A DNA stretch of 64,000 nucleotides from Flavobacteriaceae bacterium (lineage in GTDB: Bacteria > Bacteroidota > Bacteroidia > Flavobacteriales > Flavobacteriaceae). Within the stretch, counting starts at the first letter, position 1; every line of letters starts with the position of its first letter. Of the stretch, positions 4,461 through 31,907 are shown piece by piece. Below the pieces are notes generated by a model, which had not been told where the DNA came from, searched no databases, and saw only the letters and a program-made list of their open reading frames with translations. The position numbers were made by a program, and so were the translations under genes. The DNA lies in the NCBI GenBank assembly GCA_017852075.1, contig JAFMLQ010000005.1:1-64000 (forward strand), read 5' to 3'.

Positions 4461-5645
4461 CTATTTACTAGTCAAAATAGGTTGCGTCCAAGCTTGTTTT
4501 GTCTCTTTCGTATTCGGAGGGCTGTCCTTGATTGCATCAGAATTTATTTTAACTCGAACAAAAAGGTCGTTCTCTTCAAAGTTGTATGTTCCTTTAGTAT
4601 CAGGTACTCTTTTTAATGTTTCTACAACTTCTCCTCCATTTTTATACCCCAAAAATAAAATTTCATAATTCACGTCATGCTCTGGTTTTACCTCAATACT
4701 AATCTGATTTTTAGTGACTTCATATTTTTTAATAGTAATCCCAGTGGATGCATAAAAATCACCTTTTTCCATTGCATCAATCAAAGATCCTGTTTCAAGG
4801 GTTTTTGACTTAACCATTACCCATCCGCGACCCGTATTACTCAAATCAGCAGTAAAATTATGATAATGATGACTATCATCAGTAGCTATTCCATACAGTA
4901 AAGGTTTGCCTTGCTGTAAATAATGAATATTGATTAAATCCCACATGATTTCTGTGGAATCATATTCTTCATTTCCTGCATTGTGTACTGCAGGATGTCC
5001 ATTATATACTTCAAAAAAACGTTCCCCATTCAAGTTTTTCATATCCTCGGTACTTATTCCATAACCAAAATTGGGATGATTGATGTGAGCAAACATTGGG
5101 ATACCAAGTCTTTTCCTTTGTGCATGAACAAGATCAAGAGTTTTTTGCATCACCTCAACTACTGAACTAGCCTTAACTGGTTCAATTTTTTCTTGGATAT
5201 TGGTTACATTTATATGAATCGGTTTATTCTCGAATGATGAGGTAACCTCTTCTGATCTTATGATTAAGAAACGATCAGGTTCTTCTAACTTTGATCGATA
5301 CTCATCGAATGTTTTTAATCTAACACTCAGATTCAGAGAATCTTTTTTCGTTTCAACCCAGCTTCCAAATGCATCAACATATTTTTCCAAAACTTTGTTT
5401 TCCAAGTCCTTTTTTGACAATTGATACCAACGTTTATCTTCTGCAATTGTATTGTGATCTGAAAGTGCTATAAATTGATAATCATGATTTTTATACCATT
5501 GGATTATCATTTCGGGAAAATCATTCCCATCGCTCCAAAAAGAATGTGTGTGAAGATTTCCTTTTTGCCATTGCTGATTTTCAGAATTGGAATTACAGGA
5601 AACGTATAAAAAGAAAACTATAAAGAGGGAAACTATCTTTCTCAT
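4461..5645 (-). CDS. PHP-type phosphoesterase-like lipoprotein
   Basis: Probable lipoprotein with a hydrophobic signal followed by a lipobox ending YVSC near residue 17. The PHP-like metal site is evident: GNLHTHSFWSDG near residues 29-40 (HxH), then LSDHN near 61-65, and a later FAHINHPN motif and TDDSHH. This matches the CehA/McbA-like branch of PHP domain proteins, which are metal-dependent hydrolases. The substrate is unknown. The C-terminal part (after about 300) is a beta-rich region. ATG at 5645 is preferred over the GTG two codons upstream because it gives a standard lipoprotein signal. Confidence 0.75.
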   Translation of the reverse strand: MRKIVSLFIVFFLYVSCNSNSENQQWQKGNLHTHSFWSDGNDFPEMIIQWYKNHDYQFIALSDHNTIAEDKRWYQLSKKDLENKVLEKYVDAFGSWVETKKDSLNLSVRLKTFDEYRSKLEEPDRFLIIRSEEVTSSFENKPIHINVTNIQEKIEPVKASSVVEVMQKTLDLVHAQRKRLGIPMFAHINHPNFGYGISTEDMKNLNGERFFEVYNGHPAVHNAGNEEYDSTEIMWDLINIHYLQQGKPLLYGIATDDSHHYHNFTADLSNTGRGWVMVKSKTLETGSLIDAMEKGDFYASTGITIKKYEVTKNQISIEVKPEHDVNYEILFLGYKNGGEVVETLKRVPDTKGTYNFEENDLFVRVKINSDAIKDSPPNTKETKQAWTQPILTSK

Positions 5646-5822
5646 GAGCACTTAGTTATTTCAGTTTTAAACCTAAAGTTATTTTGTAATATACAAAATC
5701 TTCTTCTCAGTTTTTTACCTCCCCCATTTACGATTGTACGTACTTCTTATTTTAGATTTGGCATACCAGAATAGAGTAGAGCTCTCATCCACATAATGAT
5801 TCATTTTTAGCTAATTAGTCCT

Positions 5823-5852
5823 AAAAAAAAGCCCTCCATTTCACTGGAAAGC
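5823..5852 (-). terminator. Rho-independent terminator (copy A)
   Basis: Read on the minus strand: GCTTTCC, 8-base loop, GGAGGGC, then eight T. The RNA stem has seven pairs, two of them G-U. It lies about 65-95 bases downstream of the NTF2-like gene and is the same structure as the one after tRNA-Asp. Confidence 0.7.
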
Positions 5853-5861
5853 TTCTCACTG
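5824..5861. repeat. 38-bp direct repeat, copy A
   Basis: Perfect 38-base match to 7030-7067, beginning with an A run followed by GCCCTCC, ATTTCACT, GGAAAGC and TTCTCACTG. Similarity continues imperfectly for about 14 more bases (11 of 14). Copy B lies directly downstream of tRNA-Asp, so this copy marks the other edge of a ~1.2 kb segment. Confidence 0.9.
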
Positions 5862-5869
5862 TTTGTTTG

Positions 5870-5894
5870 CATTGGCGTAAAAGAAAAACCCTCC
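5870..5894. repeat. 25-bp 3' flank repeat, copy 1
   Basis: Matches 6581-6605 with one mismatch (CATTGG, then C or T, then GTAAAAGAAAAACCCTCC). It lies just beyond the 3' end of the NTF2-like gene. The second copy is beyond the 3' end of the DUF2892 gene, where it forms part of a full terminator. Confidence 0.85.
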
Positions 5895-5915
5895 GCTAAT
5901 GAAGATTGTATTATG

Positions 5916-6416
5916 TCAATTTCTTGGTTTAGAAAATTGATTCATTGTAACAATTTTTCCATTTTCAAATCTGAAAGTCTCCATCCAGTTAAAGCCAGAT
6001 GATGTTCCATCTTTTGATACGATATTAGCATTGTCCCACAAAAGAACCCATTCATCACCATTATCACCAGTTACTGCAAGATTTACGGCAACTTGATAAT
6101 CTTGGATTTCAATTGAAGAATAACCTTCAATCATAAACTGCATACATTTTTCTTTTCCTTCCAATCTTGAACCATCTTCTAATGCAAAAACCACATCATC
6201 TGACAGATAACTTGCTGCCATTTCATAATCCTTATTAATTAAGTACTTATGCATTTGTTGGACTTTAAGAACTAACTCAGGATTTCCAATTTTAAAATCA
6301 TCGAGATATGTAGCTTCAAAAATATAATCTACTTTTTTTGACTCTACCGATTCATTTTTCTGAGGCTGACCACAGGAGATAAATAAAACTATAGATATAA
6401 GTAATGCTTCTTTCAT
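5916..6416 (-). CDS. NTF2/SnoaL-like lipoprotein
   Basis: Protein of 166 residues with a lipoprotein signal (LFISC lipobox, cysteine at residue 15). The body has the small alpha+beta cone pattern of SnoaL/NTF2-like proteins: a helix (VQQMHKYLINKDYEMAASYL), DDVVFALEDGSRLEGKEKC, then strands ending WMETFRFENGKIVTMNQF. This fold is used by many unrelated enzymes and binding proteins, so no activity can be assigned. Its promoter/leader and 3' flank are duplicated around the neighbouring, unrelated DUF2892 gene, which makes this an accessory cassette-like gene beside tRNA-Asp. Confidence 0.7.
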   Translation of the reverse strand: MKEALLISIVLFISCGQPQKNESVESKKVDYIFEATYLDDFKIGNPELVLKVQQMHKYLINKDYEMAASYLSDDVVFALEDGSRLEGKEKCMQFMIEGYSSIEIQDYQVAVNLAVTGDNGDEWVLLWDNANIVSKDGTSSGFNWMETFRFENGKIVTMNQFSKPRN

Positions 6417-6466
6417 TTTAATTGATTTATGGTTAATAATGGCTTAAAGATATAGAGAATGAGATT
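6414..6466 (-). repeat. Leader/promoter repeat, copy 1
   Basis: About 53 bases including the start codon of the NTF2-like gene. It matches 6855-6908 with two perfect blocks of 23 and 20 bases, separated by a short divergent stretch. Confidence 0.85.
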
Positions 6467-6475
6467 TATTTCAAA
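6445..6475 (-). promoter_or_regulatory. Promoter of NTF2-like gene
   Basis: On the minus strand: TTTG, 19 bases, then TATCTTTA, close to the Bacteroidota TTTG-N19-TAnnTTTG form. It leaves a leader of roughly 25 bases before the ATG at 6416. Confidence 0.6.
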
Positions 6476-6580
6476 ACACACTAGAAACTTTCCCCAAACA
6501 ACTCCCCCCTAAAACGACAACACAGGAATCTGAACTTAAGGCAATGTCATCAATGGATTAGAAGAGGTTTGGATTGTATC

Positions 6581-6605
6581 CATTGGTGTAAAAGAAAAAC
6601 CCTCC
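6581..6605. repeat. 25-bp 3' flank repeat, copy 2
   Basis: Second copy of the element at 5870-5894 (one mismatch). Here it is completed into a strong terminator by the following GGGAGGG. Confidence 0.85.
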
Positions 6606-6617
6606 TATTGGGAGGGC
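6593..6617 (-). terminator. Terminator of DUF2892 gene
   Basis: On the minus strand a GC-rich stem (CCCTCC against GGAGGG with a 4-base loop) is followed by TTTTTCTTTT. It lies about 10 bases after the stop of the DUF2892 gene. Confidence 0.85.
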
Positions 6618-6626
6618 TTAATTTAA

Positions 6627-6857
6627 CTACTTCCCATTTTGAATCGGATCCGTATTTTTCATTAATTTATTCAAGGTGAAATAAACAGGACAAAATTTAG
6701 TGAAAGGGCTTATAATTTGTAAAACCCCAACTGCCAAGGCAATGTAAAGAAAATCTAAATTCCCAGTTTGAAGAGTTAATCCAACGCTTATTAGATATAG
6801 AATTCCACAGATAGCATCATGCGCCCGTACTTTCATAATATTTCTAGCTACATTCAT
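6627..6857 (-). CDS. DUF2892 (YgaP-like) membrane protein
   Basis: Protein of 76 residues. The pattern NVARNIMKVRAHDAICGILYL, then a second hydrophobic segment (FLYIALAVGVLQIISPFTKFCPVYFTLN, in parts), matches the DUF2892 membrane hairpin with its conserved C-P near the end (FCPVY). In this family the helix pair is often fused to rhodanese domains or stands alone; the function is unclear. The start at 6857 is chosen over an upstream in-frame start because it sits in the same leader sequence as the NTF2-like gene and restores the family N-terminus. Confidence 0.8.
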   Translation of the reverse strand: MNVARNIMKVRAHDAICGILYLISVGLTLQTGNLDFLYIALAVGVLQIISPFTKFCPVYFTLNKLMKNTDPIQNGK

Positions 6858-6908
6858 TTTAATTGATTTATGGTTAAATAATACCTCTAAGATATAGAGA
6901 ATGAGATT
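6855..6908 (-). repeat. Leader/promoter repeat, copy 2
   Basis: Near-identical to 6414-6466: the same leader and start codon context in front of an unrelated coding region. Confidence 0.85.
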
Positions 6909-6918
6909 ATATATCAAA
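6887..6918 (-). promoter_or_regulatory. Promoter of DUF2892 gene
   Basis: On the minus strand TTTG, 20 bases, then TATCTTAG, at the position equivalent to the promoter of the NTF2-like gene. Confidence 0.55.
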
Positions 6919-7029
6919 TCCCATCCCTCTGTTTCAATAAAAAATCCGTTTTCTATAACCCATGCTCCTGTTTTTGGGTTAGAAGTGCCTTTGAAGTTTT
7001 GGGATTTTGAAATTAGTTTACCATACAAC

Positions 7030-7058
7030 AAAAAAAGCCCTCCATTTCACTGGAAAGC
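7030..7058 (-). terminator. Terminator of tRNA-Asp
   Basis: Minus strand GCTTTCC, 8-base loop, GGAGGGC, then seven T. It begins about 63 bases beyond the 3' end of the tRNA. Confidence 0.75.
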
Positions 7059-7067
7059 TTCTCACTG
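7030..7067. repeat. 38-bp direct repeat, copy B
   Basis: Perfect copy of 5824-5861, located between the DUF2892 gene and tRNA-Asp. It contains the tRNA terminator. Confidence 0.9.
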
Positions 7068-7121
7068 GTTGTTACCATTGGTCTTACCCAATTTAACAAC
7101 ACACAACATCTTTAAAAAGTG

Positions 7122-7195
7122 CGGTCTGGACGGGACTCGAACCCGCGACCCCATGCGTGACAGGCATGTATTCTAACCAACTGAACTACCAGACC
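7122..7195 (-). tRNA. tRNA-Asp (GTC)
   Basis: The minus strand folds as a standard tRNA. Acceptor arms are GGTCTGG/CCAGACC, the D arm contains AGTTCAGTTGGTTAGAAT, and the anticodon arm is CATGC-CTGTCAC-GCATG with GTC in the loop. The T arm is GCGGGTTCGAGTCCCGT, and the discriminator base is G, as usual for tRNA-Asp. CCA is not encoded. A well-formed promoter and terminator flank it. Confidence 0.95.
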
Positions 7196-7209
7196 TCATT
7201 TGGCGTGTG

Positions 7210-31172: not shown

Positions 31173-31907
31173 ATGATCAAGCCCATTATTACCCTAATTC
31201 TCTTTTTATTTTTTACAACCATTTGCTTTCCACAAGATGAATTCCCAAATCTTGAAGGTAAAAAAATATTGGTTGTGTATGGAGGATGGGAAGGACATCA
31301 ACCTGAAATTTTTGCTAAAAAAATCACCTCCTGGTTAAAAGAACAAAAAGCTGAAGTACAGTTGGTTAAAGGAACTGAAATCTACAGTGACAAAGCCAAA
31401 ATGAAAGAATTAGATTTAACCATTCAGCATATTACAATGAGTGAAATGACCAAAAATGAATCTAAAGGTCTTGCTGAGGCAGTTGCGGGAGGAATGGGCC
31501 TTGCGGGTTGTCACGGGGGCTTAGGAGACTCCTTTAGGAGTGATACAGAATACCAATATATGGTGGGAGGACAATTTGTAAAACACCCTGGAGGACAGGT
31601 AACATACACAGTACAAATGAAACCGATTCAAGATCCGATCATTAAGGATATTGAAAATTTTACTCTTCATTCAGAACAATATTATATGCACGTTGATCCC
31701 GCATTGGAAGTTTTGGCTACTACCCAATTTTCTGGGGTTCATGATTCTTGGATCGAAGGTGCGGTTGTCCCTGTAGTGTGGAAAAAACCTTATGGCAAGG
31801 GTCGGGTATTTTACAATTCCATTGGTCATTCAAAAGAAAATTTTGATATCCCAGAGGTGTGGAGCCTCATTACTAGAGGTGTCGCTTGGGCTGCTCAAAA
31901 AGAATAG
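31173..31907 (+). CDS. ThuA-domain protein, secreted
   Basis: Protein of 244 residues from ATG 31173, with a signal peptide (LILFLFFTTICFPQDE). The body has the class I glutamine amidotransferase-like fold of ThuA proteins: KILVVYGGWEGHQP, then MGLAGCHGGLGDSFRSD, FTLHSEQYYMHVDP, PVVWKKPYGKGRVFYNSIGHSKE. ThuA proteins take part in disaccharide/sugar metabolism, but their biochemical role is not settled. The upstream in-frame ATG at 31068 would put 35 charged residues before the signal peptide, so it is not used. Confidence 0.82.
   Translation: MIKPIITLILFLFFTTICFPQDEFPNLEGKKILVVYGGWEGHQPEIFAKKITSWLKEQKAEVQLVKGTEIYSDKAKMKELDLTIQHITMSEMTKNESKGLAEAVAGGMGLAGCHGGLGDSFRSDTEYQYMVGGQFVKHPGGQVTYTVQMKPIQDPIIKDIENFTLHSEQYYMHVDPALEVLATTQFSGVHDSWIEGAVVPVVWKKPYGKGRVFYNSIGHSKENFDIPEVWSLITRGVAWAAQKE

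Follow-up and report, generated by a model that had tools for sequence, protein, structure and literature searches.

The textbook case of modular cassette capture is the integron, and chromosomal integrons and CALIN resemble the gene arrays described here in that unrelated small genes lie on one strand, share an intergenic element and are shuffled between genomes. Integrons are rare in Bacteroidetes, with few cases (PMC9024848). A second likeness is found in the Actinomarinales gene cassettes (PMC7771536) and the tycheposons (PMC10872708), which share with these arrays insertion at tRNA 3' ends, direct repeats of tRNA ends and cargo that varies among close relatives. Similarly, hitcher elements (reviewed in PMC11389934) have the attachment architecture of a tyrosine-integrase island without an integrase gene, an arrangement that, where the arrays display it, implies help in trans, and IS91/ISCR and other HUH transposons carry an HUH gene with a conserved 3' flank beside the genes that they mobilise. 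Charybdis elements, reported to lack the hallmark proteins of viruses, transposons and plasmids (PMC12324425), were also considered and differ. No prior description of arrays with standard cassettes, shared spacers and an HUH anchor was found in the open literature searched (subscription literature lay outside its scope). The locus examined here belongs to a window of 64,000 nucleotides from a Flavobacteriaceae bacterium (contig JAFMLQ010000005.1, positions 1 to 64,000), and we consider that it is explained, with a probability of about 0.72, by mobile cassette arrays in tRNA-targeted integrative elements, most of which would lack an integrase of their own.

All parts of the locus lie on the minus strand. 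The anchor gene is a tRNA-Asp (GTC; 7121-7195; ARAGORN and Rfam RF00005), the tRNA alone being significant in the Rfam search. It is followed by a conserved structured RNA or terminator of ~80 nt (7030-7108) and by a copy of an element termed B (about 6905-6998), which elsewhere forms the 3' flank of an HUH endonuclease gene and stands here without that gene. Next comes cassette gene A (6627-6857), encoding a 76-aa YgaP-like_TM membrane protein (PF11127, which we take to be the former DUF2892), with its predicted promoter (TTTG-18-TATATCTTA) and leader at 6855-6908 and its terminator hairpin and cassette 3' end TTTTTCTTTTACACCAATG at 6581-6617. The whole intergenic stretch between the two genes (6408-6626) is one full element A, comprising the gene A terminator, a conserved core of ~130 nt and the predicted promoter (TTTG-17-TATATCTTT) and leader of gene B (6414-6466). 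Cassette gene B (5916-6416) encodes a 166-aa SnoaL_2/NTF2-like lipoprotein with a lipoprotein signal and has a 47% paralogue on contig C27 of the same genome; its cassette 3' end (GGAGGGTTTTTCTTTTACGCCAATG; 5868-5894) directly abuts the distal copy of a repeat R (5824-5875, presumed attR side), the proximal copy of which occupies 7030-7081 (presumed attL side).

The initial annotation had described a perfect 38-bp direct repeat around two unrelated genes, an NTF2-like lipoprotein and a DUF2892 gene, that share a promoter and leader and a 25-bp 3' motif, and each of these observations stands. The repeat is exact over 38 bp (5824-5861 = 7030-7067) and extends to 52 bp at 94% identity (5824-5875 and 7030-7081), when the longest exact direct repeat in 500 first-order shuffles of 5801-7200 averaged 10.8 and reached 16 at most. 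The two leaders are near-identical, lying a few substitutions and one indel apart, the 3' motifs differ by a single base, and the coding parts belong to unrelated families (YgaP-like_TM and SnoaL_2/NTF2-like). The terminator that had been placed in the second repeat copy can be described more closely, R being the 3' part of the ~80-nt structured RNA. As had also been reported, no integrase turned up in the window, whether among the IntI-profile matches listed, which for this genome lie on contigs C63 and C22 and are taken as XerC and XerD, or in a search for Phage_int_SAM_5 (PF13102), which gave zero matches in the whole genome. Adjoining the distal R copy is a PHP-domain lipoprotein gene (4461-5651, minus strand); G003, the closest relative, has no such gene at this position, so the gene may be a further insertion.

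When set against the same site in relatives, 5824-7195 emerges as a two-cassette array inserted at the tRNA-Asp 3' flank and bracketed by a 52-bp repeat of the RNA or terminator that lies 3' of this tRNA. Two relatives have no cassettes there: in G034 a sterol-desaturase gene directly follows tRNA-Asp, and in G003 (91% identical over trxA-tRNA-Asp) the tRNA has one R copy and is followed by PepSY and sterol-desaturase genes. In G023 the site is occupied by two different genes, one for a 168-aa lipoprotein and one for a 246-aa protein that belongs to a cassette family of four members, and their terminators and leaders are of the same kind. B or its remnants are present at the tRNA-Asp loci of G031, G036 and G017, a second R copy was seen in the window alone among the loci compared, and relatives of gene A recur as cassettes at other loci in G003 and G020. 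Empty or differently filled sites had been put forward as support for units of promoter, variable gene and terminator that can be swapped next to a tRNA; both kinds were found, and together with the dispersal of the spacers they support that proposal. Out of reach of the initial annotation were the scale of the system across the genus, its anchoring at many tRNAs, the presence of an HUH-endonuclease module and the position of R within a conserved RNA.

The contigs of three further relatives (L104, L108 and L126, from G014, G009 and G007) stop inside tRNA-Asp, as expected if islands repeat the 3' part of tRNA-Asp there. On L123 (G010:C44), tRNA-Asp and the RNA that usually follows it are ~2.1 kb apart, with two ORFs in between, which likewise points to an insertion hotspot at this position. 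The downstream RNA itself shows a covarying hairpin, an invariant TGAGAAGCTTTCC and a long terminator, with both-sided changes in 9 of its 27 predicted pairs, and lies at a distance of 7-12 nt from tRNA-Asp in 18 of 20 extracted loci (185-227 nt in the other two). The sequence at 7030-7108 matched no Rfam family and is possibly a small RNA or an extended tRNA terminator.

Comparison of cassettes defines a unit that consists of a predicted promoter and leader, one small and usually exported gene, and a terminator ending in TTTTTCTTTTACACCAAT; such units are joined either directly or via a conserved spacer core (A or B). Spacer A, of ~210 bp, combines the terminator hairpin CCCTCCCAAGTGGAGGG, TTTTTCTTTTACACCAAT, the ~130-nt core, a predicted promoter of the Bacteroidetes type (TTTG-17/18-TATATCTT) and the leader ATTATTAACCATAAATCAATTAAA-ATG. 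A search of the window's own genome (1.91 Mb in 79 contigs, 89% complete), which the initial annotation had proposed, found the leader and the 3' motif at about seven places each, several of them at contig ends, so these flanks are not specific to this locus. Among 99 collected sequences, the cassette 3' end (...TTTTACACCAAT) is followed by the A core in 66, directly by a promoter in 13, by an inverted A core in one, by R in one (the window) and by other DNA in 17; the one sequence left over is a B-type site caught by the loose pattern. These transitions mark the base after ACACCAAT as the putative changing point, at which either a site-specific enzyme or homologous recombination could have acted. 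Neither A nor B has a conserved fold on either strand. A third spacer type, CATCGGCATATCCTCTTCATTAAGTTCAGG...ATTTGTATATT, precedes the same leader upstream of cassettes on L198, L197, L041 and L047 (G032, G031, G011 and G010).

Spacer A matched in all 36 congeners compared, weakly in G009 and usually with many candidates per genome, and in same-strand arrays it stands between small genes that are unrelated to one another; L053, a contig of 8.4 kb, holds about 11 such genes, nearly all on the same strand. Public names identify the congeners as MAGs of marine Flavobacteriaceae, together with at least one entry (AG-901-E05) named in the style of a single-cell genome, the presence of which argues against a binning artefact. 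Cassettes were detected through a leader pattern, and the sample of 150 leader-linked ORFs (149 without a false leader match inside another gene, at window position 31437) falls into 79 families, 48 of them singletons, with a median length of ~192 aa. By a crude rule, 76% of the cassette families look exported versus 42% of the window's ORFs, and among those with an annotation are SnoaL/NTF2, beta-lactamase-fold, OsmC, CMD and gluconolactonase-like proteins. Beyond the home genus, the A core turned up among 299 sampled genomes of the family, at 87% identity in G648 and 76% in G520 (a third genus), where the loci are cassette-like on reading; a small gene that adjoins a short spacer in G648 recurs behind B in the home genus (L028/L144). 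One methyltransferase-like gene stands directly after B in reverse orientation on L213 (G520, another genus), L032 (G026) and L175 (G004).

This distribution bears on the simplest account of the locus, an old local duplication of a promoter and terminator without any mobility. Taken alone, the two leaders would fit such an event, but the many copies in many genomes, the empty and differently filled sites and the horizontal transfer described below make it next to negligible. Under such a duplication the same two genes would occur in the same place everywhere and the flanks nowhere else, a condition excluded by a spacer that lies between other small genes throughout the genus.

Turning to integrons, the likeness fails at the two features that define them. 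IntI (TIGR02249) scored above the cut-off in none of 38 genomes, and attC boxes (RYYYAAC...GTTRRRY) occurred in none of 25 spacers in a box-pattern search (shuffled mean 0.55). Integron or CALIN identity is excluded on both grounds, and there is no conserved fold either. The arrays also differ in that every cassette has its own promoter and terminator and that a genome holds many arrays, each at a tRNA. A degenerate chromosomal integron or CALIN that lost its integrase would account for same-strand arrays, unrelated small genes and a shared intergenic element; set against the missing IntI, attC boxes and fold, and against the promoter motifs that the cassettes bear, it is very improbable. The best IntI-profile matches in the genus (G019:C55:1314-2129, G026:C66:11895-12698 and G007:C46:2242-3057; first piece 113-131 bits, cut-off 265) are tyrosine recombinases other than the usual per-genome pair.

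The same cassette is seen with different spacers, neighbours, tRNAs and orders, and in different species. Cassettes are 92-96% identical in nucleotide sequence where trxA is 77-85% identical in the pairs G010/G032, G024/G005, G024/G004, G005/G004 and G024/G003, and a sixth pair, G007/G021, has a cassette at 90.0% versus trxA at 75.2%. Cassette identities of 92-96% beside trxA identities of 75-85% point to recent horizontal exchange. Gene A itself is 75% identical between G000 and G003 (trxA 87%) and 80% between G000 and G020 (trxA 78%), and the comparisons with trxA, gene A included, fit poorly with a vertically inherited array. Several cassettes have moved recently, as these comparisons show. 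The mobility of the arrays themselves is deduced from one genome per species, in a sample made up mostly of MAGs whose contigs break at arrays.

Such exchange could also have proceeded with no dedicated cargo enzyme, by homologous recombination between ~85% identical spacers of incoming and resident DNA beside tRNA sites that collect islands. This account agrees with the length and repetition of the spacers and their similarity both inside a genome and across genomes, and with cassettes that have different spacer types on either side; we regard it as a serious contender that falls somewhat short of even odds. It leaves unexplained the spread to many tRNAs, the 52-bp and 70-bp duplications, the anchored HUH gene and B, and the direct repeats, and it fits poorly with direct and inverted junctions that share the same base after ACACCAAT.

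The element nearest to the tRNA provides a candidate enzyme. In intact copies, B starts at the stop codon (AGC TAA) of a gene for an HUH endonuclease of ~122 aa, and it is the spacer closest to the tRNA. The catalytic residues H65, H67 and Y105 of the HUH motif are invariant among 13 homologues, one of them merely 32% identical. Among known proteins, those nearest to this endonuclease are REP_ORF2-G2P (PF23343, 3e-4, below cut-off), replication proteins of Microviridae and SIRV1 ORF119; an AlphaFold model of one copy, made without an alignment, reached a pLDDT of 52, too low for use. In 15 of the 18 copies with an intact 5' end, the gene starts 204-300 nt 3' of tRNA-Asn, -Ser, -Met, -His or tmRNA, a placement with a chance of about 1e-34 under a simple model. 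Likewise, 10 solo copies of B lie 113-174 nt 3' of tRNA-Ala, -Ser, -Leu or -Asp. Comparison across these loci shows the arrays to be anchored 3' of tRNA and tmRNA genes. Of the 38 genomes, 17 had the HUH gene, which was not found in the other 21, the window's own included; of 395 genomes sampled from the whole order, one carried it.

These observations raise the possibility that the HUH protein drives the system, nicking at B or A and mobilising units anchored at tRNAs, along with the cassettes next to them, through rolling-circle transposition or single-strand capture, as in IS91/ISCR, with the spacers acting as origins or terminators and the arrays growing through one-ended events. The exact start of B at the HUH stop codon, its place nearest the tRNA and the invariant catalytic residues speak for such activity; solo B copies resemble non-autonomous derivatives, and several B/HUH fragments in one island (L189) suggest repeated events. 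Nevertheless, we judge it unlikely. Most array-bearing genomes lack the HUH gene, A and B have no conserved fold, and a tyrosine recombinase would better account for the tRNA duplications and the direct repeats. Unlike the IS91 transposases, which are far longer, the protein is a single domain of 122 aa at a fixed position 3' of tRNAs, and B is a candidate 3' end.

Signs of tyrosine recombination are found at the anchors. A direct repeat of 7 bp, its period close to 12, is present after 17 of 24 anchor tRNAs, compared with 7 of 42 other tRNAs (P 1.7e-5), examples being TTGCCT..TTGCC, TTGTACGG..TTGTACGG and TTGGCAAC..TTGGCAAC, with one of the 17 (L169) of another kind; it was not found at the window's tRNA-Asp. 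In G001, the same kind of repeat sits between tRNA-Phe and a tyrosine-integrase ORF (up to 517 aa). Furthermore, in a 17-kb island at tRNA-Asn of G011, a perfect 70-bp duplication of the tRNA bounds an HUH gene, cassettes and a 513-aa tyrosine integrase. This island (L190 460-17472, G011:C2) also holds a DNA methyltransferase and other defence-like genes. Apart from the window (52 bp) and G011 (70 bp), no long tRNA-flank duplication was found within about 19 kb in the islands, and no integrase was found to be conserved with the arrays. Tycheposons encode a tyrosine recombinase (PMC10872708), whereas the window array has none, though the G011 island does; the arrays further differ from tycheposons and Actinomarinales cassettes in their standardised promoter-gene-terminator units, their shared spacer family and their HUH module. 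From hitcher elements they differ in having modular cassette cargo with standard control regions.

Carriage of the cassettes by viruses was considered and rejected: patterns for A, B, the leader and the 3' motif had no exact match in IMG/VR, no HUH relatives were found there, and the similarity to microvirus replication proteins is weak. Plasmid carriage was also rejected, since among the matches listed the alignment was limited to the first ~120 nt, which is the tRNA end.

Taken together, comparison of genomes shows anchoring and exchange as features of these arrays, and the enzymes responsible can be proposed. Under the favored reading of tRNA-targeted integrative elements, the array would be the cargo of an element that targets tRNA 3' flanks and is integrated by a tyrosine recombinase acting in trans, a role suggested by the short repeat that follows many anchor tRNAs and recurs where an integrase gene lies next to a tRNA. 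After excision, the element may be nicked or replicated by the HUH endonuclease, of which the window would keep solely the 3' flank B. Cassettes would be added or swapped by recombination in the shared spacers, with ...ACACCAAT as the junction point, and each would be driven separately by its own promoter. More broadly, and tentatively, this could amount to a non-integron capture system in which ready-to-express cassettes are arrayed at many tRNAs by a small dedicated HUH endonuclease, or by an integrase that acts in trans on the repeats of the system, so that marine flavobacteria with small genomes could draw on a common pool of exported proteins.

Compared with integrons, the arrays represent an apparently separate cassette solution across a whole genus of marine Flavobacteriaceae. 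Having its own promoter and terminator, a cassette could be expressed at once at any tRNA site. The system provides a defined junction and a candidate enzyme, and it predicts empty sites. As assemblies break at the arrays, the flexible genome of these bacteria is under-counted. If the proposed system is real, it would account for the way in which ocean bacteria with small genomes vary the proteins that they export.
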